Counted from the first letter of the stretch, positions 3,917 to 21,722 are shown. The stretch is 64,000 nt of DNA from Phycisphaera sp. (GCA_016125215.1 WGMF01000040.1:1-64000); one strand, 5' to 3'. Notes: generated by a model from the letters alone, not told the origin. Program-made: numbers and translations.

Positions 3917-3919
3917 GGT

Positions 3920-5892: not shown

Positions 5893-6027
5893 GGAGTCAT
5901 TCCCTATTTAGGTTACACATCATGGTTGTTGTTGCGATAGCTATATGCCTGCCTGGGATCGAAACAGTGTTCGCCCAATGATTATGCCTGTGATTTGGAA
6001 ATTGGATTATTTGTGGAAACGATGTTT

Positions 6028-7389
6028 TTATTGCAAATGCCCCAACCCATAGTGCGCTTCGACCGCTCGATCGACAGCTAATTGCTGTTTCTCTGTGAAG
6101 TGTTTATCCACAAAGTACCAATGGATTTTTTCAACCCCTTCCGCCACAGCGCCGACAATGGCACCGATACCAGCCCCGGGTGCGACTCCAACGCCACCGA
6201 ACCATACCCCGATTCCGGCACCTACAGCAGTGCAGGCGAAGAAAGTCCCCGACCCCTGTAATGTGCGATTGAAATCCCGTTGGCTCATCATGCCATGGGA
6301 ATACTTGTAGTATGCAAATCCAACGTCAAATGCCTCGACACCCAATGCAACCGGGAGAAACCATTTACCTGCACCTTGTCCCAATAGCGATAGGCCGCCA
6401 TTTCCCAGCCAACCCAACTGTGCGGCTGAACCAAACCCTAGGGTGATCGCTTCCCCCCAACGACCGATGGCTGCACCCGATTGTAGATATGGCATGGCGG
6501 TGTGACGAAGGACGGGATCATGCCACATTGTCCACGCCGCCCATGATTGTTGATACGCATCCCACGCCAAACCCGCAGAGCCAAGCACACCCAATCCCGC
6601 GACACCCTTCGACGCTCGCGCCCAAAACACATCTGCTGATTGCGCTTTTCCTGCCGCCTCAAACGTGGATGCAAGTTTGGGACGTTCGCGTATTAACTTC
6701 TCCTCGATAGCGAAAGCGTCTTGTGATACGTTATTGGTGTCCCACCGTCCGATCATTTCTGGATCGCGCGGGGTTCCCCAAATATGTTCCGTCCTGGTCG
6801 CTCCCGTGGCCAGTCTGCCTCTTTGTGCTGCCCGTATGATGCGAGCGGCTTGTAGTTGCTCAGCTTCCGACGCAATATTGGATTTGAGAGTGAATTCTGC
6901 AGATCGAATCGTATTAGCGTTTGTGCCTTGAGGGAATCCATAGGAAATTTTCAGTGGAGAAAAGCCACCTTTTGCCTCTATAACACGAACTTTGCCGGAC
7001 ATCGCATCCCAATACGCTGAATCTGGGCCTTGGGGTATCGCTCTGTTCTTTGATCCAAGCAGCTTGGTCCATCCACGCTCTGCCGCATATCGTGCTCGAC
7101 CTTGAATGCCGATTCTTTCCGCCAGCAAAATACGTTCGTTAAGCGATGAGGTCATCCAGACGGTTCGGTAGTTACGTTGAAAATACGCAGCTTGGTTTGG
7201 TATGTCCCATGAAGAAGCAAATAAAGTGGAGCCGCTGCTTCGGCTTGCCAGGCCTGAAACCACCCCGGCCTGCTCCAGTTGGCTCAATGGCATGGTTAAG
7301 ACGAGATTAGCCGAATCGGCCAACGCAGTTCGCCAGACCGATATCGCCGCGATGCAAACTATCAACTTGAACCAATATCGCTGCATCAT
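6028..7389 (-). CDS. Exported PD-(D/E)XK-like protein with glycine-rich membrane tail
   Basis: I place the start at ATG 7389, which overlaps the upstream stop (ATGA) and has GGAG in front; 453 residues result. Residues 1-24 are a signal peptide ending TALA. Residues 90-142 read AERIG...GPDSAYWDAMSGKVRVIEAK, with D123 and E138-x-K140 spaced as in PD-(D/E)XK nucleases of the toxin-REase type. The C-terminal third has several hydrophobic, glycine-rich stretches (GAGIGVWFGGVGVAPGAGIG) like glycine-zipper membrane segments. This is not a standard cytosolic restriction enzyme. It could be an exported effector or a bacteriocin-like protein. Function is inferred; the nuclease residues and signal peptide are what I see. 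Confidence 0.7.
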   Translation of the reverse strand: MMQRYWFKLIVCIAAISVWRTALADSANLVLTMPLSQLEQAGVVSGLASRSSGSTLFASSWDIPNQAAYFQRNYRTVWMTSSLNERILLAERIGIQGRARYAAERGWTKLLGSKNRAIPQGPDSAYWDAMSGKVRVIEAKGGFSPLKISYGFPQGTNANTIRSAEFTLKSNIASEAEQLQAARIIRAAQRGRLATGATRTEHIWGTPRDPEMIGRWDTNNVSQDAFAIEEKLIRERPKLASTFEAAGKAQSADVFWARASKGVAGLGVLGSAGLAWDAYQQSWAAWTMWHDPVLRHTAMPYLQSGAAIGRWGEAITLGFGSAAQLGWLGNGGLSLLGQGAGKWFLPVALGVEAFDVGFAYYKYSHGMMSQRDFNRTLQGSGTFFACTAVGAGIGVWFGGVGVAPGAGIGAIVGAVAEGVEKIHWYFVDKHFTEKQQLAVDRAVEAHYGLGHLQ

Positions 7390-8768
7390 GGTTTTATCTC
7401 CATGAAATCCCGCAACGGCTTTTTCACAACGGATACGGTTTGCTCTGCCACGTAGGTTTGGTCCTCGCGCCCGTCCAGTTGCTTCCAACCCAAATCAAAT
7501 GCGCGTTGATATCGATTCTGTACTGGTAATTCAAGCAACGCCATGTTCACTGGCATCAGATGTATAACCATGGCATCACGGACTTCCCTATACCTCGCGT
7601 CATTCCAACCACCATTGTCCATCTTCCAAATACTGGCATCCTTCTTGGCATGTTCCTCTGTGGCGTGATATGAGCTTTCAAATGCCTTGATTTGTTCCAG
7701 GGCCCACCTCTGATAGTCGCGTATCGCTTTCGCCTGTTGGTCTTCGGCTTGAGCAGCGGCATGTGTGGTCATTCCCGAAACGGCGTGCTTCAGGTTATCT
7801 TCGAGCTTGTTGTAGCCCGCATCCTGAATTCCTTCCATCGACAAGGCGACGCGTGCCACAACGACCTGCTGGAGCAACATGCTGACAGCGGTTTGATAAA
7901 TCTCGGGCTGCGTATCCTTCAATGCGGCGACAGCCACCCACTGCCGATTCAAGATCGCCGCTTGTTGTTCGGCTTGATGCTTAATCATGTGCTGGTGCAA
8001 TTCCTCCCGCAAAGTGTGGATTTCGGCAGCTTGAGGTCCGTCCTTTTCGTGGTCACCTAAAAAATCATAAACATCCGCAATATCAGAATCGGCATCGGTG
8101 CTGACAGGCAAATCATCATGTTCTTCAGCAATGAACGCTTTCGCTCGAGCCACGGCCGTTTCCAGCATGACTTGGCTATATTTGTTGGAGAGCGCATCAG
8201 CTTGTGAGATCAAACGTTTCTGCAGGTCGGACGATCCACCATCGGGCTCTGCGCCTGCTAGTTGGCGCAGTTCCTGTGATTGCTGATTTAGAGACAATGC
8301 TTCGGTAGGGGTGGGACAGAGACCCATGAATGACATCGCCGCCCATCGGACCGGTGTCAGCCGTGGCATATAATCGGCTTCTGCCCAAGCGGGAAGGGTC
8401 TTAAATAACTCTGCCGTATCATTGAGAAAATTCTGTGCGTCAACAGCGTTTTGCGGCCAACGTGTGGGGTCTTTGATTCGATCTTCGAGTTGTGCCAATT
8501 GATGCTCCCATGCGGTCGGCATTACAACGGGAATAACCTTCCCCAAAGCGTGATTCAAAACGGCAGTCTGTTGATCCGTCGAAGTTCGTAGGGATTGCAG
8601 GTCACGCAAAAGGGTTGCACGCTCACTGTTTGCGGATGCCAACTGTTTGGAGATGTGTTGTTGTTCCACAATCAACAAAACTCCTATGGCAATTAGGACA
8701 ACCATGAATAGCGATAGAAGCAGCGTTCCTTTGCACTTGGTTAATTCGGACGAGCTGGTGTTTTGCAT
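7386..8768 (-). CDS. Membrane-anchored coiled-coil protein, partner of exported protein
   Basis: The start ATG 8768 follows a GGGGA box; upstream in-frame ATGs at 8810 and 8786 lack one. The 460-residue product has one N-terminal membrane segment (LLLSLFMVVLIAIGVLLIV, residues 15-33). A coiled-coil stretch rich in Q, E, L and A follows (SKQLASANSERATLLRDLQS), then a long alpha-helical domain with many W and Q. I recognise no family. It is translationally coupled to the next gene by ATGA, so the two proteins are probably made together and act at the cell envelope, for example as an anchor or delivery partner. Regulation is not visible in the AT-rich DNA upstream. Confidence 0.65.
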   Translation of the reverse strand: MQNTSSSELTKCKGTLLLSLFMVVLIAIGVLLIVEQQHISKQLASANSERATLLRDLQSLRTSTDQQTAVLNHALGKVIPVVMPTAWEHQLAQLEDRIKDPTRWPQNAVDAQNFLNDTAELFKTLPAWAEADYMPRLTPVRWAAMSFMGLCPTPTEALSLNQQSQELRQLAGAEPDGGSSDLQKRLISQADALSNKYSQVMLETAVARAKAFIAEEHDDLPVSTDADSDIADVYDFLGDHEKDGPQAAEIHTLREELHQHMIKHQAEQQAAILNRQWVAVAALKDTQPEIYQTAVSMLLQQVVVARVALSMEGIQDAGYNKLEDNLKHAVSGMTTHAAAQAEDQQAKAIRDYQRWALEQIKAFESSYHATEEHAKKDASIWKMDNGGWNDARYREVRDAMVIHLMPVNMALLELPVQNRYQRAFDLGWKQLDGREDQTYVAEQTVSVVKKPLRDFMEIKP

Positions 8769-9105
8769 GATGAGTCCCCTGGTCATTGGAGCATGAGGTG
8801 TTCGATACACGGCCCTAAAAAAATGTATCGACTGTTGCTACGATAGGGTTAGTCAAGTCAATTCTCGGACAAGTTGCCAGTCAAGGTAATACGGTTCGCA
8901 TCCATTCGCAACTATTGTAAAGCTGACCTGCGACAGGTGCGGTCACACCTGCGTCGAAGGCGGAAAATATTTTCTGTTGGGTTTTATGAATTCGCCTTAT
9001 GGCTTGCAAATCAGTGGGTGACCGGTATGCAAGTGGGTAATGTGCCATTCCGTTCCCCCCTTTGTATTGGTGCGTCATTAGCAGATGGACGATCCCCAGG
9101 TTGAA

Positions 9106-9128
9106 GACGGCATAGGTGGCCAATGACG
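9106..9128 (+). repeat. 23-bp direct repeat, copy 1
   Basis: GACGGCATAGGT-GG-CCAATGACG. It matches 9556-9578 except for the central GG/AA. The spacing between copies is 450 bp. Confidence 0.6.
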
Positions 9129-9440
9129 TTCCCGACGGAATGGGTTTACGCCGGGTATGTAACAGATGTGGCATGCGGCGGCGAAAGCATTTTGGATTTT
9201 CATTACGAATCAGCCCCATCGCCACAAATAAGTGGATATACGGGCGTGGTGGCCTGGGTATGTAAAAAAAATCGAAAAGTTTCCAGATTTCACGCAACAT
9301 TTCGGGCCCTTCTGCAAAAAGACAATAGTGCAGGGACGATGGCGGCGGATCGGTCGATTGTCGGCAGATTCGGCGCAAGAAAATCGCCGCAGGTGCAGAT
9401 ATAGAGGGTGACGGAAGGGTGAAATCGCGGCGTGTGCGGA

Positions 9441-9470
9441 CAGAAAGTTCCAGTAATGGAACGATTTTCA
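9441..9470 (+). repeat. 30-bp repeat containing a TTCCA/TGGAA palindrome, copy 1
   Basis: The unit starts CAGAAAGTTCCAGTA and ends TGGAACGATTTTCA. Its centre is an inverted repeat of GTTCCA and TGGAAC around a 4-bp spacer. It differs from the copy at 9628 at one base. A related palindrome is at 12353. Confidence 0.65.
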
Positions 9471-9555
9471 GAAAAACCCGATTTTGATCCCGCACGGGGG
9501 GGGTGAGCGGCAAATAACTTTATGGAGACAGACTTTTGCGGACAGCAGTCCGGCG

Positions 9556-9578
9556 GACGGCATAGGTAACCAATGACG
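9556..9578 (+). repeat. 23-bp direct repeat, copy 2
   Basis: GACGGCATAGGT-AA-CCAATGACG, the partner of 9106-9128. Confidence 0.6.
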
Positions 9579-9627
9579 AGAGCAACAAAAAGTCGGCCGA
9601 CGGTGGGTGGAGATCGACGCTCCCGAT

Positions 9628-9657
9628 CAGAAAGTTCCAGTATTGGAACGATTTTCA
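9628..9657 (+). repeat. 30-bp repeat containing a TTCCA/TGGAA palindrome, copy 2
   Basis: Same unit as 9441-9470 with one substitution in the spacer, which makes the arms GTTCCA and TGGAAC flank GTAT. It lies 211 bp upstream of the first gene of the capsid-bearing element, so an operator role is possible. Confidence 0.65.
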
Positions 9658-9868
9658 AAATCTTCGGATTTTGTTGCAACTTTTCGGAGGGGTGCGGCAA
9701 TAAGCATTACGTCGGCGGAAAAAATTCTGCCGAATCTCGAAATCCGACGGCGAGATTTGGGGTTGAGCGGGTAATCACTATGGGGGGCCGTGCGATGGTG
9801 GAGCGCCGATGCGTATCGGCGGCCATCGCCCCCGGAATAGGGCCCCCGTCTGAAAGGAGTTTTGTTTT

Positions 9869-10402
9869 ATGCGGAACGTGATGAGCATGGCGGACTATCG
9901 GAAGCTGTTTCCCCACCAGGTGTCGTACCCCAAGCGAACGTCGCAGGCGGCGACGGAACTGGTGACGCGGGGGCTGAAGGCCAGCGTGGCGACGCTGGAT
10001 TATCTGGTGAACAAGGGGGAAGTGCGGATGCCGCGCGGCGACAAGCGGACGCGCCACTGGTATCCGTGGCACATCATGGAGGCGGCGCGATACCTGGAGA
10101 AACACGAGGCGTTCACGCCGGAGGGCTGGCGGTGCGTGATGGAAGATGTCGATCTGGCGCAGGACATCCGTGCGTTCCGCGCCGCGTGTGCGCAGGCCCC
10201 GCACCTGCCGCCGGACCGGGGTTACTTTGTTCGGACGGTGACGCCGAGCGGGCCGTGCTATCGCAATGGTGAGTATGACGTGCCGGGCATGGCCGCCAGG
10301 CGCGTGTATGCCACGGTCAGCTATCGCCCCATCAGCGTCGAACAACTGGCCGAGTGGGGCGAAATGCTCGATGCCGCCAAGAGTCAGGGGGTGGCCGCTT
10401 GA
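9869..10402 (+). CDS. Putative DNA-binding protein of capsid-bearing element
   Basis: The start ATG follows AAAGGAG by nine bases; 177 residues. Residues 30-70 (VTRGLKASVATLDYLVNKGE, then VRMPRGDKRTRHWYPWHI) look like a winged-helix or excisionase-type domain: a recognition helix followed by a basic wing. The remainder is helical with no known motif. It is the first gene of a forward-strand series that leads into the capsid fusion gene, and its TGA overlaps that gene's TTG start. I infer an element regulator or a head-morphogenesis helper; there is no sequence proof for either. Confidence 0.6.
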   Translation: MRNVMSMADYRKLFPHQVSYPKRTSQAATELVTRGLKASVATLDYLVNKGEVRMPRGDKRTRHWYPWHIMEAARYLEKHEAFTPEGWRCVMEDVDLAQDIRAFRAACAQAPHLPPDRGYFVRTVTPSGPCYRNGEYDVPGMAARRVYATVSYRPISVEQLAEWGEMLDAAKSQGVAA

Positions 10403-12282
10403 CCCCCGCCCCCGAAAGTAAAGAAGCCATCGCCACCTTCGGCACGATGCCTGAAACCCTCGATCTGACGGCCTCCGTAAATGTCAACAAGCTTCCGGGG
10501 GTGAATATCGTGGCGTACACCGGTGGATTGATGACGGTGCCGCAGTGGGGGTTGATCGTCATCGACCTGGCGGGTTTGGAACTGGGGCAGGTGCCGATTC
10601 TGGCCGATCACGAATCACGGTTGGCGGGGATCGTCGGGCATGGTGACGCCCAAGTGCGGGATCACCGTTTGATCGTCGCCGGGAGCATCTCGGCGACGGG
10701 CGAAGCGGCGCAGGAGATCGTCGCGGCGGCGCGCAACGGATTCCCGTGGCAGGCGTCGGTGGGTGTGCAGGTCATGGAGGCCGAGCCCGTGCGGGCCGGT
10801 CAGGTCATCGAAGTCAACGGTAGGCGGATCACGGCCCCAACTTCCGGGGGCCCCGGAAGTGAAGGGTTGATGCTCGTCAAAAGGGGCCGCCTGCGGGAAG
10901 TCAGTATCACCTCGCTGGGTTGCGATGGGGACACGGTGGTCTCCATCGCGGCCTCGCAAAGAAAAGGACAACACATGGACGTTGAAACAGTGCAAGTGCA
11001 GGATCAGGTTCAGGCAACCGATGCGGCGGAGACACAGCGGGTCGCCGCCATCGCGGAGATTTGCGGCCAGCGGTATCCGCAGATTCAGGCGCGGGCCGTG
11101 GCCGAAGGGTGGGATTCCACACGCACCGAGTTGGAGGTGCTGCGTGCCAGTCGCCCGAAGATCAGTTCGGTCTGGCGTAGCGCACCCACATCGCCTGCCG
11201 GGAACGTATTGGAAGCGGCGTTGCTGACGCACATGGGGCGCGTCGGCCTAGGTGAACGGGTACTGGGGCCGGTGGCGATGGAACAGGCCCATCGCATGGG
11301 CGTCACCAGCATGATCGACCTGTGTCGGGCGGCGCTACAAATGGATGGGCGCGACGTGCCGACGGGGCGGATGGAACTGGTGAAAGCGGCACTCAGCACG
11401 ATGTCGTTGCCGACGGCGCTGGGTAATGTGGCGAATAAGGTGCTGTTGGACAATTACAACGAGACGCCCGCCTCGTGGCGTGCGTTCTGCGCCGTCCGTA
11501 GCGCCGGCGACTTCAAAACCAACAACGCCATTCGGCCCACGTTCACCGGTTCACTCGAACAGGTGGCCCCCGGCGGTGAACTCAAACACGGCGGCATCAG
11601 CGAAGCGGTCACCACGTTCCAGATCGATACCTTCGGCAAGATGCTGAGCATCGACCGGCGCGACATCGTCAACGACGACCTGGGCGTATTCGAGGATGCA
11701 GCGGCGAGTTTCGGGCGCATGGCGATGCGGAAGGTCAGTGATCTGGTGTACCGGGTGCTGCTGGCCAACGGCGGCAATTTCTTTTCGGCAGCCCATGGCA
11801 ACCTGCTGGACGGTGTCGATTCGGCGCTGACGCTGGATGCGTTGTCGCAGGCGATCGCGCTGATGCGGACGCAGCGCGACGACGAGGGTAACGATCTGGA
11901 TTTGCGGCCGGCGACATTGCTGGTGACGCCGGAGTTGGAGCCGACGGCCCGGATGCTCATCGAAAGCGAGTACGTTCAGCGGGCCGAAGACGTGCCGACC
12001 GGCAACAGTCTGCGGCGGGCGGTGAATCTGGAAGTCGAACCGCGATTGAGCAACACGACCAAGTTCGGCGCGTCGGCCAGCACCAAGCACTGGTATCTGT
12101 TCACACAGCCGTCGGCGGTGCCGATGATCGTGGCGTTCCTCAACGGCAAGCAAACGCCGACGGTGGAATTCTTTGGCCTTGATCAGGACGTGAACAAGCT
12201 GGCGGTGGCGTGGCGCGTGTACCACGACTTCGGCAGTGCGTTGTGCGATCCCCGGGCTGCGGTGCGCAGCGCCGGTCAATAA
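10399..12282 (+). CDS. Prohead protease-major capsid protein fusion
   Basis: I place the start at TTG 10399, overlapping the previous stop (TTGA), with an AGGGGGT box upstream. The 627-residue product has an N-terminal prohead-protease-like domain of about 200 residues (VPILADHESRLAGIVGH with the likely catalytic His, FPWQASVGV with the likely Ser, and the closing LREVSITSLGCDGDT). A linker with Q-rich scaffold-like sequence follows. A capsid domain runs from about 270 to the end (DTFGKMLSIDRRDIVNDDLG, RPATLLVTPELEPTARML), like Mu gpT/HK97-type major capsid proteins. Self-processing fusions are known in phages. No portal, terminase or tail gene accompanies it here. An exact 21-bp palindrome sits at the end of the protease part. 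Confidence 0.85.
   Translation: MTPAPESKEAIATFGTMPETLDLTASVNVNKLPGVNIVAYTGGLMTVPQWGLIVIDLAGLELGQVPILADHESRLAGIVGHGDAQVRDHRLIVAGSISATGEAAQEIVAAARNGFPWQASVGVQVMEAEPVRAGQVIEVNGRRITAPTSGGPGSEGLMLVKRGRLREVSITSLGCDGDTVVSIAASQRKGQHMDVETVQVQDQVQATDAAETQRVAAIAEICGQRYPQIQARAVAEGWDSTRTELEVLRASRPKISSVWRSAPTSPAGNVLEAALLTHMGRVGLGERVLGPVAMEQAHRMGVTSMIDLCRAALQMDGRDVPTGRMELVKAALSTMSLPTALGNVANKVLLDNYNETPASWRAFCAVRSAGDFKTNNAIRPTFTGSLEQVAPGGELKHGGISEAVTTFQIDTFGKMLSIDRRDIVNDDLGVFEDAAASFGRMAMRKVSDLVYRVLLANGGNFFSAAHGNLLDGVDSALTLDALSQAIALMRTQRDDEGNDLDLRPATLLVTPELEPTARMLIESEYVQRAEDVPTGNSLRRAVNLEVEPRLSNTTKFGASASTKHWYLFTQPSAVPMIVAFLNGKQTPTVEFFGLDQDVNKLAVAWRVYHDFGSALCDPRAAVRSAGQ
10840..10860. repeat. Perfect CTTCCGGGG palindrome inside the capsid gene
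   Basis: Arms ACTTCCGGGG and CCCCGGAAGT around a single G. It encodes TSGGPGSEG in the linker between protease residues. It is built from the CCCCGGAAGT motif that recurs, often in tandem, in other genes of this window. Confidence 0.75.
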
Positions 12283-12352
12283 CGTGGCACTGTGTGGGCG
12301 CGGGTGGCCGGGCCGGTGTTCGTCTTTCGCACCGGTCCGGCATCCGCTTTCG

Positions 12353-12374
12353 ATACTGGAAACATTTCCAGTAT
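12353..12374. promoter_or_regulatory. 22-bp perfect palindrome, possible operator
   Basis: Arms ATACTGGAAA and TTTCCAGTAT are separated by CA. It lies 70 bp downstream of the capsid gene and 41 bp before the next start codon. Its half-site TTCCAGTA also occurs in the repeats at 9441 and 9628, suggesting a shared DNA-binding protein. It lacks a T-run, so it is a poor terminator. Confidence 0.55.
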
Positions 12375-12414
12375 GCCTTCGGCATATTTCACGGTGAATT
12401 TACTCGAGGTGAAT

Positions 12415-12642
12415 ATGGTTGCGATGGATCGACCGTGTGCCACGGACGGCACGACGGACCGGGTGGGCAAGTACAAATTCGAGACGGCGTTCGCCGAGGG
12501 CGGCGATGGGGATGTGGACCAACTTCGATCACACCGACGCCGGGCGCTGACCCGATGGCTGGTGTCGGAGTGGCGGCGTGAACACGGGCGCGGTCGCCAC
12601 ACTCGGCCGACGACGTTCCGTCAGATCGCGGAGAGGAATTGA
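12415..12642 (+). CDS. Small basic protein before the helicase gene
   Basis: ATG 12415 is chosen because GAGGTG lies just upstream; the frame is open earlier but without a ribosome site. The 75-residue product (MVAMDRPCATDGTTDRVGKY...) is rich in arginine in its second half (LRSHRRRALTRWLVSEWRRE), consistent with nucleic-acid binding. No family is recognised. Its TGA is two bases before the helicase ATG, so the two are co-translated. Confidence 0.55.
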   Translation: MVAMDRPCATDGTTDRVGKYKFETAFAEGGDGDVDQLRSHRRRALTRWLVSEWRREHGRGRHTRPTTFRQIAERN

Positions 12643-12644
12643 AT

Positions 12645-14021
12645 ATGGTGGCCAAACAGACAACACCGATCACGCCGGGGCACTATGAAGCGAAGATCGT
12701 CAGGTCGCAGATGGTCGCCACGGCGGACGGCAATCGCCTCGATCTGAACTTCGAGATCATCGGCGGCGAGCACGATGGCGGCACCATCGTCAAGCAACTG
12801 CACTTGCACAGCCGCAATGCGAATACGCAGTGGCGGGACCGTCAGGACCTATGCCATATCTGTCGGGCGGTCGCCGTGCTGACGCCGCACGACAGCAGCG
12901 AACTACATAACATCCCGATGGTGATCCAAGTTGGGGTGGACAAACGGCGCAACACGATTCTGGCGTATGCGTCCGCACGCAGACAAAGTGCTGCTGAACC
13001 ACCCAAATCCCGACGTCTGCAACTGACCCGCGCCGATCAGATCGAGATTCGCCCGCCGGACTGGCTGTTGCGTGGCATGATCGAGCGCGACACATTCGCC
13101 CTGATCTTCGGTGATCCGGGTTGCGGCAAATCGTTCCTCGCCATCGACTGGGCGTGCAGGATCGCCACAGGGACGCCGTGGCGCGGTCAGGCGGTGAAGG
13201 GCGGCCCCGTCGTCTACGTCGCGGGAGAGGGCCAAAACGGGTTCGGCAGGCGCATTCGTGCGTGGAGCGAGCACCACGGTATCACGCTTGCCGAGGTGCC
13301 GCTGTACCTGGCCCCGGCGGTGGCGATCCCCGATCCGACCGACCTTGTCGCCCTGATCACCGCCATCGACACCGGCGTGGCGAACGTCGGGCAACCGACG
13401 CTGATCGTGCTGGACACGTTGGCGCGCTGCTATGGCGGCGGCGATGAAAGCTCGACGCAGGACATGAGCCGGTTCGTCGCGGCCTGTGATGCGATCCGCA
13501 ATCGATACAACTGCACGATCCTTGTCGTGCATCACAGCGGTCACGCCGACAAAACTCGCGCCCGGGGCGCAATGGCCCTGAAAGCGGCGCTCGACGCCGA
13601 ATACCGATTGGCCGGCGACAACGGCCTCAGGTTGACCTCCACCAAGATGAAAGACGCCGAGACCCCGCCGCCGTTGGCGATGGAACTGGTGACCGTCGAG
13701 TTGCCGGGGCTGGTGGACGACTACGGCAACCCCGTCACGTCGGCGGCCATCGACGTGGTTGATGCCGACACCGGCGCACTCGAATCGCAGGCGAAGGCGG
13801 CGCTGTCGGGCAAGCGCGGCAAGTGGCAGCGACTGGGTTTGAAGATCGCCAAGCGTTTGATCGCCGACAACGACGGCGGCGAGGTGGCCATCGAATCGTG
13901 GCGGGACGAATGTCTCCGAGCAGGCATGGTGCGGCAGAACCAGCATCGCGTGATGCAGGCGCTGTTGGAGCGCGGCGAAATCATCGTCGCCGGTGAATCA
14001 ATGAGCCTTCCAACCGCCTGA
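12645..14021 (+). CDS. DUF669 domain fused to RepA-like hexameric helicase
   Basis: ATG 12645 follows GAGG by eight bases; 458 residues. Residues 1-110 match DUF669 (ITPGHYEAKIVRSQMVATAD, LNFEIIGGEHDGG), a phage family placed next to single-strand binding and replication genes. Residues 125-370 are a RecA-fold ATPase of the RepA/AAA_25 type, with Walker A GDPGCGKSF, GGPVVYVAGEGQNG, Walker B PTLIVLDTLARCYGG and the sensor VVHHSGH. The C-terminal 80 residues are helical, possibly a winged helix. Such helicases start replication of plasmids and phage satellites. The array of CGTGAC repeats begins two bases after the stop codon and is the likely origin it acts on. Confidence 0.85.
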   Translation: MVAKQTTPITPGHYEAKIVRSQMVATADGNRLDLNFEIIGGEHDGGTIVKQLHLHSRNANTQWRDRQDLCHICRAVAVLTPHDSSELHNIPMVIQVGVDKRRNTILAYASARRQSAAEPPKSRRLQLTRADQIEIRPPDWLLRGMIERDTFALIFGDPGCGKSFLAIDWACRIATGTPWRGQAVKGGPVVYVAGEGQNGFGRRIRAWSEHHGITLAEVPLYLAPAVAIPDPTDLVALITAIDTGVANVGQPTLIVLDTLARCYGGGDESSTQDMSRFVAACDAIRNRYNCTILVVHHSGHADKTRARGAMALKAALDAEYRLAGDNGLRLTSTKMKDAETPPPLAMELVTVELPGLVDDYGNPVTSAAIDVVDADTGALESQAKAALSGKRGKWQRLGLKIAKRLIADNDGGEVAIESWRDECLRAGMVRQNQHRVMQALLERGEIIVAGESMSLPTA

Positions 14022-14022
14022 T

Positions 14023-14260
14023 CGTCACACCGTCACACGTCACGTTTGCCCCCCTTAAGGGGGGCAAAACGTGACGGTGTAAACGTGACGGTGCCCAAAA
14101 TGAAAATGTGACAACGTGACAAACAAAACGTGACGCCGCAACACAAGTCAAAACAACACTTTACGGAAAGCGTCACGTTTGGAGCTTGATGAAAACGTGA
14201 CAACGTGACGGTTGGAAACGTGACGAGCGTCACATTTTGGTTTTTCGGGCAAACGTGACG
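14023..14260. repeat. CGTGAC iteron array and palindrome, candidate replication origin
   Basis: Within 240 bp I count about a dozen copies of CGTGAC in both orientations, most extended as AACGTGAC(G). Forward copies include those near 14068, 14082, 14113, 14127, 14194, 14202, 14217 and 14252. Reverse copies (GTCACG-type) are near 14023, 14031, 14038, 14171 and 14228. The perfect palindrome GCCCCCCTTAAGGGGGGC is at 14048-14065, embedded in a longer imperfect inverted repeat. The array begins directly after a RepA-like helicase gene, as in iteron origins of plasmids and satellites. No ordinary gene fits here. Confidence 0.7.
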
Positions 14261-14394
14261 CTTGGGCGGTTAGGTACTCCGCCGCGACGGCCTTTTCATG
14301 ACGGCGGCGGGAACCGTCGAGGACCAAAGCAAAGTTTGTTGGCAAGGGCGCACATTCTGCCGTAACGCCCCCCCCGGAAGTAATTGAGGCCACG

Positions 14395-14586
14395 ATGTTG
14401 ACGCATCAGATGTTGTTGAAGATCGCCTGGCATCAGCATGGCGACCATCGCGGTTGCTACCGCCGCAGGTGCGCCGCGTGCGGCACCGTGTTCTATGTGG
14501 GTCGCCCCGAGGCCCGGTATTGCCGTTCCGCCTGCCGCCAACGCGCCTATCGCAACCGGCGAAGAATCCGGGCACATTCCACTTGA
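14395..14586 (+). CDS. Small zinc-ribbon protein
   Basis: A 63-residue protein whose start ATG follows GAGG. The second half contains CAACGTVFYVGRPEARYCRS and then ACRQRAYRNRRR. The arrangement C-x2-C-x12-C-x3-C is a treble-clef or zinc-ribbon pattern with a basic tail. Proteins of this type occur in actinobacterial and planctomycete mobile elements as short DNA-binding factors (family-level impression). It sits between the candidate origin and the serine recombinase gene, so a role in replication or excision control is possible. Confidence 0.6.
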   Translation: MLTHQMLLKIAWHQHGDHRGCYRRRCAACGTVFYVGRPEARYCRSACRQRAYRNRRRIRAHST

Positions 14587-14676
14587 TGTTCACTCCACGT
14601 TCAGCCCTCATGTCGTAGATGCGGCACCGCATCGTGTGGTGCCTGTCCGACTCATTCCGCGAAAGGAGATTCCACC

Positions 14677-16701
14677 TTGGTTGCCAACCGAAAAGCCATC
14701 GCCGCCGTCGGGTACGCCCGGCGCTCCACCGACATGCAGGAGCGTTCCATCCCTGACCAGCAGGCCTACGTCGAACGCTGGGCGCAGGACAACGGCTATC
14801 GCATCCTCCGCTGGTACGTCGACGACGCCATCAGCGGCACCAGCGTCAAGGATCGTGACCAGTTTGAAGCCATGATCGCCGATGCCGAAGGTTCCGGGGT
14901 TTCCGGGGGTGGGAGAGATTTCGACGCCGTGCTCTGCTACGACCTGTCCCGCTTCAGTCGCGGCGGCACCAACGAGACCGGCTACTACATCCACCGCCTG
15001 CACATGGCGGGCGTCGAGTCCATCTTCCCCGCCGAGTCCATTCCCGAAGGCGATGAAGGCGAACTGCTTCAGGGCGTCAAGTCGTGGCAGGCCCGCCAGT
15101 ACAGCGTGAAATTGTCGCGCGACACGCTGCGCGGCATGGTGTCCAGCTTCATGCAGGGCCGCAACACGCCCGGCGGTTGCAACCCCTACGGCTATGACCG
15201 CCAACACGTCACCGCCGACGGCACGGTGCTGCGAACCATCCGCCAACTGCCCGACGGACGCAGGCAGGAGTTCGACGCTCAAGGCAACCCGACGCGCATC
15301 CTCGGCGAGGGCGAACGCGCCCGCAAGGACAAAAGCATCTATGCCCGCCTGGTGCCGTCGTCGCCCGAGCGCGTCGCCGTGGTCCGGCGCATCTTCGATC
15401 AATACATCAACGGCCACGGCATCACCACCATCGCCTACGAACTGAACCAAGAACAGGTGCCCGCCGTGTTCAGCAGGCATTGGACCGTCTCCACCATCAA
15501 GGGCATTCTCTCCAACCCCGTCTATCGCGGCGCGATCGTCTGGAACCAGTCCAGCACCGGCAAGATTCACGGCGTCGACGGCACCGGCCACACCAAACGC
15601 AAACGTGGGCGCGATCGTGAAAAGAACCAACGCACCGACTGGTTCATCATCGAAGACGCCCACGAACCGTTGGTGTCGCGCGAAATATTCGAGCAGGCGC
15701 AGCGGCTTCGTAAACAACGGGCCGGGGATCGCGCTGGCAAGCGAAGTGGCGGCGCGGCCCGCGTGGAAAATCGTTCGCTGCTGTCGGGCTTGTTCACCTG
15801 TCGCCACTGCGGCAACGGCTACCACCATGTCGCCGACTCCAATAGGTACAAGGGCCGCAAGAAACGCTATCGCTATTATCGCTGCACCGGCTTCACCACC
15901 GGCGGCACCGGCGTATGCCCCTGTTCAAGCGTGCCCGCCGACGGACTCGAATCGCTGGTGCTGGATCGCATCAAACGCATCCTGTTGGGCGAACACCAGA
16001 ACACCGACGCCGCCATTGACGACTTCGTCGCCGCCGTGCTGGGCGGCACCGGCCCGGTGGTGGACACCGCCGAAATGACCAAAGCGGTCGCCGCCGTCAC
16101 CCGGCGCATCGAAACCACCGTCGCCATGCTCGCCGATCCGGAGTTCGACGGCCTCGACGAACTTCGCGCCACGTTGGCCAAGCTCAAAACCCGCCGCGAC
16201 GATCTTCAGGCCGACCTCGAACGCATGGAACGCACCGGCCCGGGCATTGCGAACGAAACCGCTCTGCGTCAGTGGGCCGGTTCACGCATCGCCCTGCTCG
16301 ACGGCCCCATCGCCACCTACCAGCCCTCGCCGGAACTGCGGCAGTTGGTGCAGAACTTCGTGGATCGCATCGAAATCGACCCCAACGCCAAACGTGGTGC
16401 GATCCACCTGCCCAAAGACATCGCCACCGCCTACCAACACCTTTTTGTGGGGAACCCAGCGCACGGGAACGCGTCGGCCGTCGGGTCGCGTGATCTGGCT
16501 GATGAAGGGCCGTGGCTTGTTCATGGTGTTCTCCTTGGTTTTGGGTGGTTGGGGCTTGGCGTTCATCGCGTGCTCGTTGGTGATGCGTATGAACACATGA
16601 GGGCAAGATGTCGCCCCGACATCAAGGCCAATCTGGCCCATGTGGGGAACTTTTTGATGCACACATGTGGCGTCCCCGTGGCGAGTTACGGACATGCCTG
16701 A
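14677..16701 (+). CDS. Large serine recombinase (integrase)
   Basis: The start is TTG 14677, eight bases after AAAGGAG. The resolvase domain (1-150) begins AVGYARRSTD with catalytic Ser17, and continues with YDLSRFSRGG. A recombinase domain (200-300) and a zinc-ribbon domain (LFTCRHCGNGYHH, near 370-420, with later cysteines) follow. A coiled coil then runs to about residue 590, ending in the typical RIEIDPNAKRGAIHLP. These enzymes integrate and excise phages and mobile elements at short att sites. A GSGVSGGGR insertion near residue 70 is built from the TTCCGGGG repeat. The last ~80 residues (from VGNPAHGN) do not look like integrase and may be read-through into flanking DNA across an att junction. 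Confidence 0.9.
   Translation: MVANRKAIAAVGYARRSTDMQERSIPDQQAYVERWAQDNGYRILRWYVDDAISGTSVKDRDQFEAMIADAEGSGVSGGGRDFDAVLCYDLSRFSRGGTNETGYYIHRLHMAGVESIFPAESIPEGDEGELLQGVKSWQARQYSVKLSRDTLRGMVSSFMQGRNTPGGCNPYGYDRQHVTADGTVLRTIRQLPDGRRQEFDAQGNPTRILGEGERARKDKSIYARLVPSSPERVAVVRRIFDQYINGHGITTIAYELNQEQVPAVFSRHWTVSTIKGILSNPVYRGAIVWNQSSTGKIHGVDGTGHTKRKRGRDREKNQRTDWFIIEDAHEPLVSREIFEQAQRLRKQRAGDRAGKRSGGAARVENRSLLSGLFTCRHCGNGYHHVADSNRYKGRKKRYRYYRCTGFTTGGTGVCPCSSVPADGLESLVLDRIKRILLGEHQNTDAAIDDFVAAVLGGTGPVVDTAEMTKAVAAVTRRIETTVAMLADPEFDGLDELRATLAKLKTRRDDLQADLERMERTGPGIANETALRQWAGSRIALLDGPIATYQPSPELRQLVQNFVDRIEIDPNAKRGAIHLPKDIATAYQHLFVGNPAHGNASAVGSRDLADEGPWLVHGVLLGFGWLGLGVHRVLVGDAYEHMRARCRPDIKANLAHVGNFLMHTCGVPVASYGHA
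16440..16524 (-). pseudogene. Start of an unknown gene cut at the recombinase end
   Basis: On the minus strand AAGGAGAACACC precedes ATG 16524, an excellent ribosome site. The reading frame begins MNKPRPFISQITRPDGRRVP followed by VRWVPHKK, which looks like a natural protein start. It then runs into the antisense of the recombinase gene, where it becomes meaningless. I infer that an intact gene once continued to the left and was split when the serine-recombinase element inserted; the missing part may be near 5480-5640. Confidence 0.5.
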
Positions 16702-16978
16702 AAAAACACCGAAAATTCCTCCCCCGGAAGTGCCCCCGGAAGTGCCCCCGGAAGATGAAAACACCGGCCCGGGTAGCGCCGCCGCCCACGCGCCCGTGGC
16801 CGACCCGGCAGCGCTGAGCGTCGCGCATCTGGCGCGGCTGTTGGCGTTACCGGAAGACAAGGTGCTTAAGCACATTGCCGCGGGCGCACCTTCCGCGGCC
16901 GACGGGACCATCAACCTGGTGCGCTACGTGGCGTGGCTTAACCGACGCCTGAAGGAGAACGATGGCCCGGAGGTTTGA
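16694..16978 (+). CDS. Proline/glutamate-repeat protein with HTH-like end
   Basis: A 94-residue protein. The N-terminus holds PPEVPPEVPPEDE, encoded by tandem CCCCCGGAAGT units, a motif dispersed through the window. Residues 40-94 (LSVAHLARLLALPEDKVLKH, VRYVAWLNRRLKEN) resemble a small helix-turn-helix domain. The next gene's ATG lies inside its last codons, so the four genes from here to 17720 form one overlapping set. Function is unknown. Confidence 0.55.
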   Translation: MPEKTPKIPPPEVPPEVPPEDENTGPGSAAAHAPVADPAALSVAHLARLLALPEDKVLKHIAAGAPSAADGTINLVRYVAWLNRRLKENDGPEV

Positions 16979-17225
16979 TCCAACGCAGCTCAGCCAGCAG
17001 GACCTGCTGCAGATCGTCAACGCCACGCCGATGGGCGCGGTGCTGACACGCTCGCGCCTGCGTCGGCAGATGGACGCCGGGGGATTCAAGTTCGGCGACG
17101 GCGAATCCATCCACCTGGCCCACTACGCGCGGTGGTTAGTTGATGAGTTGGATAATCCGCCTCTTGAACGAGCTGCGCGCCGCTGGCGTGGAGTTGCGCG
17201 TGTCGCTCGAACTGGATGGTTCTGA
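16962..17225 (+). CDS. Small accessory protein, unknown
   Basis: AAGGAG precedes ATG 16962, which overlaps the upstream gene by 17 bp. The 87-residue product (MARRFDPTQLSQQDLLQIVN...) has helices and the segment RLRRQMDAGGFKFGDGESIH, followed by YARWLVDEL. Its layout resembles the end of the upstream protein (AHYARWL against VRYVAWL), so the two may be distant copies of one domain. No enzymatic motif is seen. Confidence 0.55.
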   Translation: MARRFDPTQLSQQDLLQIVNATPMGAVLTRSRLRRQMDAGGFKFGDGESIHLAHYARWLVDELDNPPLERAARRWRGVARVARTGWF

Positions 17226-17388
17226 AAGGGCCTTGACCGACGATGTGCTGGAGCGCATCCGCGTTCACTATGCCGGTCTGATCCTGCTCGTGGCGGACGA
17301 GGAATCGCCAGTACCACTCAAATTGGAGCTACCCAAAGAATCAGAATCACGGCGACATTACTCTGCCGGGGAGGGTGGGTCGACGTGA
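17143..17388 (+). CDS. TubC N-terminal docking domain-like protein
   Basis: I choose ATG 17143, with GGTGG upstream; the frame begins inside the preceding gene. The 81-residue product has LLNELRAAGVELRVSLELDG followed by LTDDVLERIRVHYAGLILLV. That is the pattern of the TubC_N docking domain: a strand pair, then L-T-x-D-x-L-x-R-I-x-x-x-x-A-x-[IL]-x-x-L. Stand-alone copies are common in phage and plasmid accessory gene sets, usually next to primase or integrase genes; their role is unclear. The GTG of the next gene overlaps the stop. Confidence 0.6.
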   Translation: MSWIIRLLNELRAAGVELRVSLELDGSERALTDDVLERIRVHYAGLILLVADEESPVPLKLELPKESESRRHYSAGEGGST

Positions 17389-17720
17389 CGCGTTCGACCG
17401 CCGCCAACCTCCAGCTCCACGACGACCATGACGATGGCGTGGTCGACGAGCTTGGGCATGAGCCCGGCACGTCGCCCATGGTCGGCATCGCGCCCATCGA
17501 GCCGTTGGCAGTGGATGTCACGCAGGCGGCGGCGCTGATCGGCGTCAGTCGCAGTGCGTTCTACAAACTCGTCAGCGCGGGGCGGATCGGCCCTCGGGGC
17601 GTGCAGTTAGGCAAGCATGTCCGCTACCCGCTGGCGGAACTGCGCGAATGGGCAGCAGCGGGGATGCCACCGAGGCATGAATGGGCCGGACGCAGGGATC
17701 GGCTGGAAGACCCCGAATAG
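17385..17720 (+). CDS. Helix-turn-helix excisionase-like protein
   Basis: GTG 17385 overlaps the previous stop (GTGA). In the 111-residue product, residues 44-95 (DVTQAAALIGVSRSAFYKLV, GPRGVQLGKHVRYPLAELRE) match the HTH_17/AlpA-type winged helix of excisionases and directionality factors. It lies 99 bp upstream of the tyrosine integrase gene, the normal place for an excisionase. It would bend DNA at the att site and may also regulate the integrase. Confidence 0.75.
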   Translation: MTRSTAANLQLHDDHDDGVVDELGHEPGTSPMVGIAPIEPLAVDVTQAAALIGVSRSAFYKLVSAGRIGPRGVQLGKHVRYPLAELREWAAAGMPPRHEWAGRRDRLEDPE

Positions 17721-17819
17721 CAGGGAATCCCGTTGTTTGCCCTTGATTAATGGGCCGACAGTCGCCCTTGTGTGTCCTACCGGCCTCAACAGATACAGCC
17801 GGGGAAAGGACTGTGAAAC

Positions 17820-19049
17820 ATGGCAGGTTGGCGAGCATTCAAGAAACAAAAGAACCGCAGCCGGTACACGATCGCGGGCAAGGACCACCTGGGCGTCGTG
17901 CGGCAGATGCCGGCGTTCACCCAGGAGGGCCTGAGCCGCGAGTTAGCCCGGAATGTGGCGACGCTGGTGGAGCACAAGCGGAACAACTGGACCTTGCCGC
18001 CGCACCTGGCGATCTGGGCACAGGGCTTGGCGCCGGATATCAGGAACAGGCTCACCGACTTCGGGCTGCTGGATGGCCAGTCCAAACCGATCGCAGGTCA
18101 CCTGGCCGACTTCGAGGCGACGCTCAAGGCCAAGGGCAACACCGGCAACTACGTCATGCAGACGCTCTTCAGAATCAGGACCATCGTGGACGGGTGCCAA
18201 TTCAAGCACTGGTCCGACGTGCAGGCCAGCAAGGTCCAGCGGTTCATCGCGGAACTGATGGCGAGCAAGACCAAGCCCGCCACGGCGCAGACGCAGAACT
18301 ACTACTTGCGGGATTTCAAGGGCTTCGTCCGCTGGGCGGTGCGGGACGGCAGACTGGCGCAGTCGCCGGTTGAGCACCTGCGTCCCCTGTCCGCCGCCAA
18401 GGTGCGGGGCGACCGCCGCCACGAGCGCAGGGCGCTGACCGTCGAGGACGCTACGCGCCTCTTGACCACCACGAAGGCCGAGCCGGAACGCTTCGGTATG
18501 ACGGGTATCGAACGGGCGATGCTCTACCACCTTGCGATTGAAACGGGCCTGCGGGCGGGCGAGCTGTGCTCGCTGACGCGCCAGTCGTTCGACCTCCACG
18601 GCTACGAGCCGACGGTGACGGTCCACGCCGCCTACACGAAGAATGGTGACCGAGCCACGCTACCGCTGCGTTCGGAAACGGTCGAAGAGTTGCGCGTAGT
18701 GCTGGCGGGCAAGGCTCCGCAGACCAGGGCGTTTGCGATGCCGCGCCGGCACCTGGTAATCGCGATGTTGCGCGCAGACCTCGCGGCAGCGGGCATCCCG
18801 TACCGGCTCGACGAAAAGCACGGCAAGGTGATCGACTTCCACAGCCTGCGCCACACCTGCGGGTCATGGTTGGCGGCGGCAGGCGTCCACCCGAAGGTGA
18901 TCCAGAAGATTATGCGCCACTCGACGATCACGCTCACGATGGACCGATACGCGCACGCGTTCCAGAGCGATGAGGTGGCGGCAATCGCCAAGTTGCCCAC
19001 GCTGACGCCACCCAACGCCACTGTCCACGCCGTGGCCCAGACGGCGTAG
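17820..19049 (+). CDS. Tyrosine recombinase (phage-type integrase)
   Basis: 409 residues. A SAM-like core-binding domain (about 90-200) is followed by the catalytic domain. The conserved residues are visible: Arg in ETGLRAGELCSL, the box HSLRHTCGSWL near 340-350, the His in IQKIMRHSTI, and the nucleophile Tyr in MDRYAHAF near 379. These enzymes integrate elements into tRNA or other genes. A decayed second copy of its C-terminal sequence lies at 21790-21917, so related elements have inserted in this place more than once. The C-terminal residues HAFQSDEVAAIAKLPTL are shared with that remnant. Confidence 0.93.
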   Translation: MAGWRAFKKQKNRSRYTIAGKDHLGVVRQMPAFTQEGLSRELARNVATLVEHKRNNWTLPPHLAIWAQGLAPDIRNRLTDFGLLDGQSKPIAGHLADFEATLKAKGNTGNYVMQTLFRIRTIVDGCQFKHWSDVQASKVQRFIAELMASKTKPATAQTQNYYLRDFKGFVRWAVRDGRLAQSPVEHLRPLSAAKVRGDRRHERRALTVEDATRLLTTTKAEPERFGMTGIERAMLYHLAIETGLRAGELCSLTRQSFDLHGYEPTVTVHAAYTKNGDRATLPLRSETVEELRVVLAGKAPQTRAFAMPRRHLVIAMLRADLAAAGIPYRLDEKHGKVIDFHSLRHTCGSWLAAAGVHPKVIQKIMRHSTITLTMDRYAHAFQSDEVAAIAKLPTLTPPNATVHAVAQTA

Positions 19050-19160
19050 ACCACGGACGACCTACGCGATCAGCCCACGGCTGGACGACAAACATCTACT
19101 CAGCCATAATCGCACACACAGACAGACCCCCATCGACCACAAGCTTACAGGGGACACATC

Positions 19161-21722
19161 ATGCCACGGCATTCGGACGCCATTGGATATCTCCTTGAGC
19201 TTCGTGATGAGATCGGCTTCGATTGGTTTAGGCTCGCCTGTGATCTGGCGATTGCATCTCACGACGGCTCGGTCTCGGACGATGATCGCATTCAACTGTG
19301 GGAGCAGTTCGTCAGCACTACCCCATACACGCCACGGTCCATCAGCCCTACCCCTTCAGCCTCATCCGCATCTCCTATCCCCCATTCATGGATTGAGGCG
19401 CTGGGTGGCTTCCTCAACTTTCGCCGATTGACTGACAGTTTGCAAGTCTCATTCTCTAAGCCTTTGACCGTGATATTTGGAACAAATGGCAGCGGGAAAT
19501 CGAGCATCTGTGACACGGTACGTATCCTCGCCAGTGCTTCTCCGCCTCCCGCTGAATACGCTAACGTCCGATCGCGTGATAAGCCGTACGGGTTCGACTA
19601 TAAATTCCGAGATCAGCCACCAGCCAAGTGGAATAGTGGCGACGGATTTGGTGTCCATGCGGGTGCGTTGCGCTATTTTGATACCACGATCGCGATGCGC
19701 CATATAGAGTCATCATTGGATGCAGGTCGAGTTGTTGAGCTGTCACCCTTCAGACTAGAGGTCTTCGACTATTGTCGGGCGCTCATACGTGCGCTTAAGA
19801 CGGTAACGGAAAATAAAGCAGAAGGAGATCGCAGTGCGGCGCAAGCATTGATCGATCCTGTTGTAAAGGGCTTCGGCAACGAGCTCCCAACGGATGAGAC
19901 CGCAATCTCATCGCTGTTCACTGGTGACGGACAGCCGCTGAAAGCTGCAATCGAGGCGCACGTATCGCTGACAGAGGCAGATGCGAAGGCGTCAAAGGAG
20001 GCGGAAGCTACCATTACACGCCTGAAACTGGCAGGGAGTGCGGAAGGTGTACGCGCGCTCAAGGCGGAAGTGCAACTCCTTAAACAACTCGCGAGGTGGC
20101 TTGACGAGTACACCACAACCATTGGCACGGCGTCCGTTCGCGACACCATGAACAAGCATAACGAGCTAGATGGGTTACGGGAGCAGCAATCGGACCTCGT
20201 AAAGGCCGTTACACCATCTGACCTCAGAGCGGACTCGTTTGTAAAGTTAATACGAGTCGCCTACGAAGTTGCAAGCATCAACAAGGACCGAGATGACTGT
20301 CCGTTATGTAAGCAGGCGTTGAGCGACGATGCGAAGGTTATTTTCACCAAGTACCACGAGCTTGTCGCGAGCGAATTGTCGGCTCGGATCGAAACCGCCG
20401 AGGGTGAACTAGACAAAATGCAGAAATGCCTCTTTGCGGCGAAACGCATGTCGCTGCTAGATCTAGCTCCCTACAAAGATTTGCTGGCGGACGAGATATG
20501 CGACAGGATAAAACACCAGTTTGACGCCATGGTTACAGCAATTCCCGCCAAGGTTGATGACTCAACTGATGCGCTCGCTGATGCTTTTGAGGAGGCAGGC
20601 GACGTTGACGGCCCCAAGCAGTCCGTCGTAACCGCCATTATGGCGCGTGAGGGAAGCATCGCAACTGCAGAATCGGGCAATGAAGCTAGAGACAACGAGA
20701 TCGCCGCTGCTGAAGCAATCGTACGGAGCTACAAGTATCGACTCCATTTCGAGAATTCGCTCAATACTCTCAAGAAGATCGCAAGCCACCTCACGGGTGC
20801 CCAAACGATCGACAAGCTGGTTGCCATCACGGACTTCCCTACCGTTCTACGGAAGATGACAAACCTTGGTAAGCAAGTACATGACGAACTGGTCATCGAT
20901 CAGTTTCGGCATCGTTTGGACGCCGAGTACAAGGCACTCACGGGTAAGGTAATGGCAGACTTTGGTATCGAGCTTGTCCGACGCGGAGCAGATCAGGATG
21001 TGACTATTGACCCACAGATCGGTGGCGCGGAAATTCACCGAGTATTGAGCGAAGGAGAGCAAAAGGTACACGCCCTTTCCCTGTTTCTCGCGGAGGTGAG
21101 CGTCAGCCCGACCGACGTCATTGTCCTCGACGATCCGGTCAATAGCTTCGACTACAACTACACGCGCACATTTTGCGAGCGACTGCGTGATCTCGTCCTG
21201 GCGACACCGGATCGACAGTTCATCATCTTTACGCACAGTTGGGAGTTCTTCTGCCGCATCCAGAATGTTCTGAACAACTCTGGTCTTAACAACAACTACG
21301 AGATACAGGTCGTGGAAGAATGTTCTTCCGTGCAACTGTACAAAGAAAAGGTCGCCGAACTCAAACATGACGTCCAGCAAGCACTCGCCATCAAGACGCT
21401 CTCTCGACGTGACAAAGAAAACGTGGCGAAGTGGATTAGAATTCTCGCTGAGGTTGTCGTCAATTCTAGCGCATTCAACGGACAACGCCAGCAATACAAA
21501 CAGAGCGGCTTGAAGGTCTCGGACTTCACCGCCTGTACCAAGCTGGTTGCGCTTACGAACGATGAAGCAACCACGCTAAAAGACGTTTTCGGGCGGATGA
21601 GTCCGCAGGAGCACGATGACGCGAGCACTTTCTACACCGCGATGGATGTCGGTATCCTTAAGGCCAGTTATGAGGATGTGCTTAAAGTCGAGGAGGCTCT
21701 TGTCGCGCGTCGGCCAAAGTAG
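19161..21722 (+). CDS. Rad50/AAA_13-like ATPase, possible defence protein
   Basis: 853 residues. The ribosome site CAGGGGAC precedes the ATG. Walker A GTNGSGKSS is at 107-115, long helices run from 200 to 600, and a zinc-hook-like CPLC lies near residue 380. The ABC signature LSEGEQK is near 628 and Walker B VIVLDDPVNSFD near 652-663. This is the layout of SMC/Rad50-like proteins of the AAA_13 class, which includes the ATPase parts of PrrC, Septu and other defence systems (family knowledge). I see no nuclease domain. An unusual 100-residue N-terminal extension precedes the ATPase. GC content is lower than in the integrase, pointing to recent transfer. It is the only gene between the integrase and the second integrase remnant. 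Confidence 0.8.
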   Translation: MPRHSDAIGYLLELRDEIGFDWFRLACDLAIASHDGSVSDDDRIQLWEQFVSTTPYTPRSISPTPSASSASPIPHSWIEALGGFLNFRRLTDSLQVSFSKPLTVIFGTNGSGKSSICDTVRILASASPPPAEYANVRSRDKPYGFDYKFRDQPPAKWNSGDGFGVHAGALRYFDTTIAMRHIESSLDAGRVVELSPFRLEVFDYCRALIRALKTVTENKAEGDRSAAQALIDPVVKGFGNELPTDETAISSLFTGDGQPLKAAIEAHVSLTEADAKASKEAEATITRLKLAGSAEGVRALKAEVQLLKQLARWLDEYTTTIGTASVRDTMNKHNELDGLREQQSDLVKAVTPSDLRADSFVKLIRVAYEVASINKDRDDCPLCKQALSDDAKVIFTKYHELVASELSARIETAEGELDKMQKCLFAAKRMSLLDLAPYKDLLADEICDRIKHQFDAMVTAIPAKVDDSTDALADAFEEAGDVDGPKQSVVTAIMAREGSIATAESGNEARDNEIAAAEAIVRSYKYRLHFENSLNTLKKIASHLTGAQTIDKLVAITDFPTVLRKMTNLGKQVHDELVIDQFRHRLDAEYKALTGKVMADFGIELVRRGADQDVTIDPQIGGAEIHRVLSEGEQKVHALSLFLAEVSVSPTDVIVLDDPVNSFDYNYTRTFCERLRDLVLATPDRQFIIFTHSWEFFCRIQNVLNNSGLNNNYEIQVVEECSSVQLYKEKVAELKHDVQQALAIKTLSRRDKENVAKWIRILAEVVVNSSAFNGQRQQYKQSGLKVSDFTACTKLVALTNDEATTLKDVFGRMSPQEHDDASTFYTAMDVGILKASYEDVLKVEEALVARRPK

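Follow-up and report, generated by a model that had tools for sequence, protein, structure and literature searches.

How an element with a gene for a shell protein, and none for portal, terminase or tail, may come to travel in a virus particle is the question raised by a locus in the planctomycete Phycisphaera sp. (GCA_016125215.1, WGMF01000040.1:1-64000; this whole stretch of 64,000 nucleotides is called the window, and positions are counted from its first letter). Here, we report that window positions 5455-16474 make up a whole integrated element, with 11,012 bp between its attachment cores, and that, judged from sequence comparison, it is probably an integrative satellite which brings its own capsid and parasitizes tailed temperate phages of Planctomycetota, borrowing their terminase, portal and tail. 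Its ends are an 8-bp direct repeat, GAACGCGT, at 5455-5462 and 16467-16474; this core was located by reading the sequence, a 12-mer repeat scan being too coarse for it. A preliminary description, also made from sequence, had suggested a satellite bringing its own capsid and had set the borders at 9869-16447; these borders were wrong (5455 and 16474 are the true ones), and the satellite suggestion is now supported by a recurrent unit of ~11 kb, a monophyletic capsid under selection and copies inside tailed prophages that hold the missing genes.

When the flanks are joined, an open, in-frame minus-strand gene of 93 aa is restored, which reads MNKPRPFISQITRPDGRR/VRVSVPENPK...MDEVGL, the slash marking the junction. 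Six other genomes of the order hold homologs of the restored gene; one homolog spans the junction and most cover residues 24-93. The borders and the phage genes around them are as follows.

5455-16474: whole element; GAACGCGT at both ends, target restored, recombinase tail motif just inside the left end
5455-5462: attL, left attachment core, from the sequence
16467-16474: attR, right attachment core, from the sequence
5231-5462, minus strand: flank, 3' part of the interrupted 93-aa phage gene (homologs of the restored gene)
16467-16524, minus strand: flank, 5' part of the same gene (homologs of the restored gene)
16691-17225, plus strand: flank, prophage TerS (to 16978) and N-terminal fragment of TerL (16962-17225); tblastn E 1e-7 and 3e-8 to TerS/TerL of Planctomycetota prophages
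1422-4492: flank, prophage methylase-ParB gene (1422-2744, plus) and its neighbour gene (3920-4492, minus); 74% and 47% identity to locus L073

The interrupted gene is directly upstream of the TerS-like gene, which is followed by the first ~90 residues of TerL, and across the element are the methylase-ParB gene and its usual neighbour, in the order found in intact prophages such as L073 (relatives are cited by such locus numbers). Because of the TerS/TerL fragment on one side and the methylase-ParB pair on the other, we place the element inside a prophage remnant.

All genes named in the preliminary description are present on the plus strand, as judged from Pfam, PHROG and structural comparison.

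9869-10402, plus: MerR-like winged-helix DNA-binding protein, 177 aa; AlphaFold2 predicted local distance difference test (pLDDT) 85.5; best PDB matches MerR, GlnR and RacA, all weak
10399-12282, plus: fusion of prohead protease and major capsid protein, 627 aa; PF25209 (Phage_capsid_4) E 8e-39, PHROG 4523/133 (major head and protease)
12292-12642, plus: small protein, 116 aa; recurrent, though weak, homologs at this position in several relatives
12639-14021, plus: DUF669-AAA_25 replication protein (single-stranded DNA-binding and helicase parts), 460 aa; PF05037 4.6e-8, PF13481 2.6e-45, PHROG 6015 and 906
14036-14263: iteron array (AAACGTGACG), candidate replication origin, from repeat counts; similar arrays in relatives
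14395-14586, plus: zinc-ribbon-like open reading frame (ORF), 63 aa; homologs at the same position in L032, L040/L041, L046 and L047
14677-16474, plus: large serine recombinase; PF00239, PF07508 and PF13408 (resolvase, recombinase and zinc ribbon); ORF open to 16701 when integrated

The protease-type residues His71, Ser120 and Glu167 of the fusion are invariant (17 of 17 aligned sequences). A profile search of the element's own genome for Peptidase_S78 (PF04586) gave no match, so the protease is recognised only through PHROG and these conserved residues. The candidate origin was also borne out: AACGTGAC is found in 10 copies in 373 bp, all of them between 14039 and 14259, with just two more in the whole window, and over 200 shuffles the most repeated 8-mer never exceeded 3 copies. 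Iteron arrays follow the replication gene in all six elements examined, with comparable arrays in L032, L036, L041, L046 and L047 and two main iteron types. No Pfam or PHROG family matched the 177-aa protein, whose family is conserved upstream of the capsid gene in most relatives. In line with the preliminary description, Pfam and PHROG scans of the proteins of the element, together with tblastn, gave no homolog of portal, terminase or tail genes within it, TerS and the TerL fragment being outside, immediately downstream; the contiguous terminase-portal-capsid-tail operon of an ordinary tailed prophage was not found in it either. The element thus has the general features of a phage satellite, i.e., its own integration and replication genes, an incomplete virion set and a small size.

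Where, then, would the rest of the particle come from? Protein searches gave two groups of capsids, clade A (52-61% identical) and clade B (about 30-43%). Clade B is the capsid of ordinary Planctomycetota prophages with TerS, TerL, portal, decoration, major tail and tape-measure genes, whereas in clade A a portal gene never stands beside the capsid gene within the element, and replication and recombinase genes are mostly present. A maximum-likelihood tree of 57 capsids recovers clade A as monophyletic (support 100/97) and places the clade-B capsids from the interrupted prophages L041, L104 and L109 outside it, which argues for an old, separate lineage of satellite capsids rather than repeated capture from helpers. 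The capsid is under purifying selection (dN/dS, the ratio of nonsynonymous to synonymous substitution rates, is 0.10-0.28 for five clade-A pairs). The same architecture, with the same borders, is found at more than 15 loci as a discrete integrated unit, and the ten elements whose borders are set measure 10.2-11.4 kb despite differing cargo, for which we consider a packaging limit a natural explanation. Their lengths in bp are listed here.

Window: 11,012
L041: 11,231
L046: 11,276
L047: 11,423
L042: 10,977
L037: 10,804
L109: about 10,758
L108: about 10,408
L107: about 10,317
L032: 10,225

About 11 clade-A copies are located inside clade-B-type prophages, which carry their own packaging genes and a different capsid; the capsids of element and helper belong to one family and are ~33% identical. 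The sites of insertion are as follows.

L041/L086: major tail protein gene, split
L036/L087: tape-measure gene, 3' end
L104: phage capsid gene, 3' end
L107, L109, L108 (L111 apparently the same as L108): TerL, split exactly at the Walker B sequence VVID/DPQT
L034/L044, L103, L110: methylase gene, interrupted
L060: truncated copy

Tape-measure genes are found on contigs L108, L111, L104 and L036. These relatives lie within a late gene of a tailed prophage, and excision would restore the target; for the window it is the small gene upstream of TerS in a remnant. The preliminary description had named regular linkage of these genes to a terminase, portal or tail operon in relatives as an observation that would speak against a satellite. 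Such linkage is, literally, what was found, yet the linked genes are those of the interrupted prophage, which has its own different capsid; the linkage therefore makes the helper visible and does not refute the satellite.

The recombinase gene adds a further feature. The attachment site of the element, attP, is within this gene, and integration swaps the C-terminal tail of the recombinase for target-gene sequence and leaves the catalytic part intact. In the window, the ORF (14677-16701) runs past the core at attR into flanking phage DNA, and the lost tail is encoded at the opposite end.

5463-5527, plus: encodes the C-terminal tail of the recombinase (CSGFMTTIEFAWERGKVVEIG, followed by a stop); in frame across attP, joined to the recombinase only in the circular form

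The circular-form recombinase is 620 aa long and ends in HGNACSGFMTTIEFAWERGKVVEIG. In L107-L109, the integrated ORF continues in frame into the C-terminal part of TerL, and in L041 into the tail protein; closure of the circle yields a short tail that carries the conserved pattern (V/I)-x-F-[AVST]-W-x-x-G before the stop. The motif F-[ATVS]-W-x-x-G is present at 14 element left ends over 13 loci, compared with a single match in 1,065 kb of strand from clade-B loci. From this motif at the left ends and the switch of ORF at attR, we conclude that attP is in the recombinase gene and that integration removes a conserved tail. In L032 and L042, which have another recombinase subclass, circle closure gives an open but different tail. 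The motif may instead be an integrase-binding site conserved at the DNA level only; however, it lies 27-52 bp from the core, and a serine integrase dimer contacts roughly 25 bp on each side of the core (PMC3783163). With its exchangeable tail, the recombinase is a candidate built-in sensor of whether the element is integrated. We did not find a tail-swapping serine recombinase in the literature searched, which is no proof of absence. SSV-type "suicidal" archaeal integrases (PMC8371274) likewise have the attachment site inside the integrase gene and a protein altered by integration, but they are tyrosine recombinases split into inactive halves, whereas only a C-terminal tail of ~20 residues is exchanged here and the catalytic part stays intact. 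In the integration-dependent immunity of actinobacteriophages (PMC5559632), attP is also inside the gene of a regulatory protein whose C-terminus is altered; that protein is a repressor with an ssrA-like tag, and here it is a recombinase with a conserved F-x-W-x-x-G tail.

Taken as a satellite, the element would behave as follows, and we infer this whole sequence of events from gene content and insertion sites. Upon helper induction, the satellite would excise, freeing the terminase or tail gene of the helper and regenerating the full-length recombinase, and would then replicate from its iterons. Its capsid protein may assemble small, P4-like shells, to be filled and tailed by the terminase, portal and tail of the helper. 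The modelled 177-aa MerR-like protein is a candidate packaging-specificity factor, perhaps marking satellite DNA for the helper terminase, or a candidate regulator. TerS proteins of the lambda type use a fold similar to the MerR-like winged helix, which is why marking of the DNA is conceivable. In its most specific form, that satellites with serine recombinases lock the helper by inserting into the most conserved codons of its packaging and tail genes (e.g., terminase Walker B), build a full shell themselves and register integration through a conserved recombinase tail present only in the circle, the model is tentative, its chances in our estimate falling slightly short of even. If it is true, the satellite switch, the helper terminase and the activity state of the recombinase would be one DNA joint.

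Several observations weigh against the satellite reading. The AlphaFold2 model of the capsid protein is poor (mean pLDDT 50.6), so that the HK97 fold which the preliminary description expected for residues 270-627 is unconfirmed structurally; the fold assignment leans on PF25209, PHROG and profile matches to the solved major capsid proteins 8rkc and 9jod. In favour of the satellite, a clade-B portal is more frequent in clade-A genomes (5 of 10) than in others (58 of 382; one-sided Fisher p 0.012, phylogeny uncorrected), but the association is confounded by host phylogeny; the portal was not found in the other five clade-A genomes, that of the window included, and no present helper is known there. 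The own genome of the window has no further match to its TerL or to portal. The window copy may be stranded, as only a remnant of its helper is left and the assembly yielded no other. Several copies lie outside phages, in tRNA genes: L032, L035, L042, L045, L047 and L050 are at tRNA-Pro and L037 is at another apparent tRNA site; L031, L046, L049 and L039 are further copies at other sites. Sampling of IMG/VR is also enriched for phage-embedded copies, but by hand count 4 of ~14 loci from genome collections are phage-embedded too.

Among the alternatives, the one that survives best keeps the satellite and changes the role of its capsid protein, which would co-assemble with or poison helper capsids (size redirection or interference) or be a spare copy; we regard it as unlikely, with a minor share of our confidence. 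Other satellites redirect or interfere with helper capsids by means of small remodelling proteins. The family relationship between the element and helper capsids makes an interaction conceivable, and capsid genes are common yet dispensable for transfer in phage-inducible chromosomal islands (PICIs) of the GN-PICI group (PMC10111431). The whole protease-capsid fusion has been kept, however, with invariant protease residues, strong purifying selection and a clade apart from helper capsids, and a stand-alone shell accounts for these features more readily than a captured spare copy or a small modifying protein would.

Considerably less probable, i.e., improbable in our judgement, is a plasmid-like element that needs no helper and is packaged in a shell of its own. 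The element does have its own replication module, and RHOAph of Rhodovastum atsumiense (L085, NZ_OW485609.1), a linear plasmid of 10,690 bp (10.7 kb), has a similar layout of capsid-protease fusion and DUF3987 replication protein with no listed portal, terminase or tail. But the window element has no recognisable packaging motor or portal, and the repeated insertions into late genes of helpers link it to tailed phages. RHOAph differs as an extrachromosomal linear record with ParA and toxin-antitoxin genes, no recombinase listed and a capsid only 26% identical; its 178-aa upstream protein was rejected as a homolog of the 177-aa protein, the alignment being unconvincing. RHOAph is possibly a free-living analogue of the clade-A satellites. 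A decayed prophage with the capsid as its last structural gene is highly improbable and was rejected: the surrounding prophage is indeed a remnant with TerL cut after ~90 residues, but more than 15 loci share the gene order and borders, the capsid clade is separate and monophyletic, and the prophages around relatives own separate capsids.

As a capsid-bearing satellite, the element can be compared with known systems. P4 has a genome of ~11 kb with its own replication, depends on a helper and has no capsid gene, its Sid protein remodelling the helper capsid. P4-like satellites are thus alike in size, replication and helper dependence, and differ in that our element has its own capsid; the P4 hallmarks Sid, Delta, Psu and alpha primase were absent among the Pfam/PHROG matches of the main element proteins. 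The closest known are the helper-embedded PICIs (HE-PICIs, e.g., 11capE; PMC10111431), likewise ~11 kb, inside a helper late gene and with several target sites; they too may carry their own capsid gene while interrupting that of the helper, and excision restores the helper gene. They use tyrosine integrases only, whereas this element has a serine recombinase, attP inside the recombinase gene and a Planctomycetota host; their late genes were proposed to be captured from helpers (PMC10111431), and here the protease-capsid lineage is independent and monophyletic. HE-PICIs are recognised by a tyrosine integrase together with AlpA, in place of which the element has its large serine recombinase; no AlpA was among the scanned proteins of 5455-16474, an AlpA and a tyrosine integrase at 17385-19049 being outside the borders. 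Capsid-forming PICIs (cfPICIs) and the Streptomyces satellites MulchRoom and MiniFlayer (PMC10690885) likewise have their own capsid and take at least the tail from a helper, but they encode TerS, TerL and portal, and cfPICIs also protease and connectors, whereas our element has only protease and capsid. Against the definition of cfPICIs, the major capsid protein and head maturation protease are there, and TerS, TerL, portal and connectors are not. Because it lacks both the HE-PICI integrase and the cfPICI packaging genes, we consider the element a new variant of satellite, neither HE-PICI nor cfPICI. In the satellite literature compared, we found no satellite that relies on shell protein and protease alone and lacks both portal and terminase, and a literature search found no paper on a planctomycete satellite.

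The remaining part of the element holds possible cargo and regulatory repeats.

5650-5892, minus: small ORF, 80 aa, possible cargo (ORF only)
6028-7488, minus: cargo ORF, 486 aa; same place as restriction-modification/conflict cargo in relatives
7386-8810, minus: cargo ORF, 474 aa (ORF at the cargo position)
9441-9709: pair of operator-like repeats (palindromes TTCCAGTA[A/T]TGGAA) preceding the first gene; direct repeat of 82 nt with 72% identity

The two larger cargo ORFs gave no significant Pfam match and no PADLOC defence family; relatives have restriction-modification genes (L041, L042), MoxR/vWA genes (L037) or a trypsin-Bflower protein (L031) at this place. The palindromes are at 9441-9466 and 9628-9653, with a similar one at ~12353-12375 between the capsid and replication genes, and they are likely operators of an element regulator. 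Outside the element, 17385-21722 abuts the prophage remnant and encodes an AlpA-like regulator, a tyrosine recombinase and an AAA ATPase of 853 aa that matches PADLOC PDC-S06 models; it is a second, separate integrative element and probably the cause of the shortened TerL. A Fic/Doc-like and AbrB-like pair (2741-3355), toxin-antitoxin-like by eye, directly follows the prophage methylase gene.

Among the relatives, L032, L037 and L046 each have another serine recombinase gene immediately beyond the left border, a candidate for tandem elements or remnants stacked at one att site. The clade-A copies L033, L035 and L038 are on short contigs binned as Chloroflexota, Verrucomicrobiota and Acidobacteria; the binning may be wrong. 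L052/L053, L059, L065 and L075 have clade-A-like or deep capsids, no clade-B portal, tyrosine integrases and mostly primase-helicases; in L059, L065 and L075 deeper-branching protease-capsid fusions lie close to a tyrosine integrase, the last two loci also having a primase-helicase. This suggests further capsid-only islands in Planctomycetota. In genome G167, a 3,060-bp block with a clade-A-like capsid occurs twice (L052, 7853-10903; L053, 8823-11867; 96.8% identity), adjoining different tRNA genes (Leu, Ser), with a tyrosine integrase in L052; recent movement or exchange between capsid-bearing islands is a candidate explanation.

Overall, the element looks like a member of an undescribed family of phage parasites that would build their own shell and borrow the rest from the phage they interrupt. 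Helper-embedded satellites would be extended to another phylum, Planctomycetota, and to another class of recombinase. As helper and satellite are joined in one contig, the sequence itself gives the identity of the helper, attB, attP and the restored genes, and why a satellite would keep only a capsid becomes a testable question.
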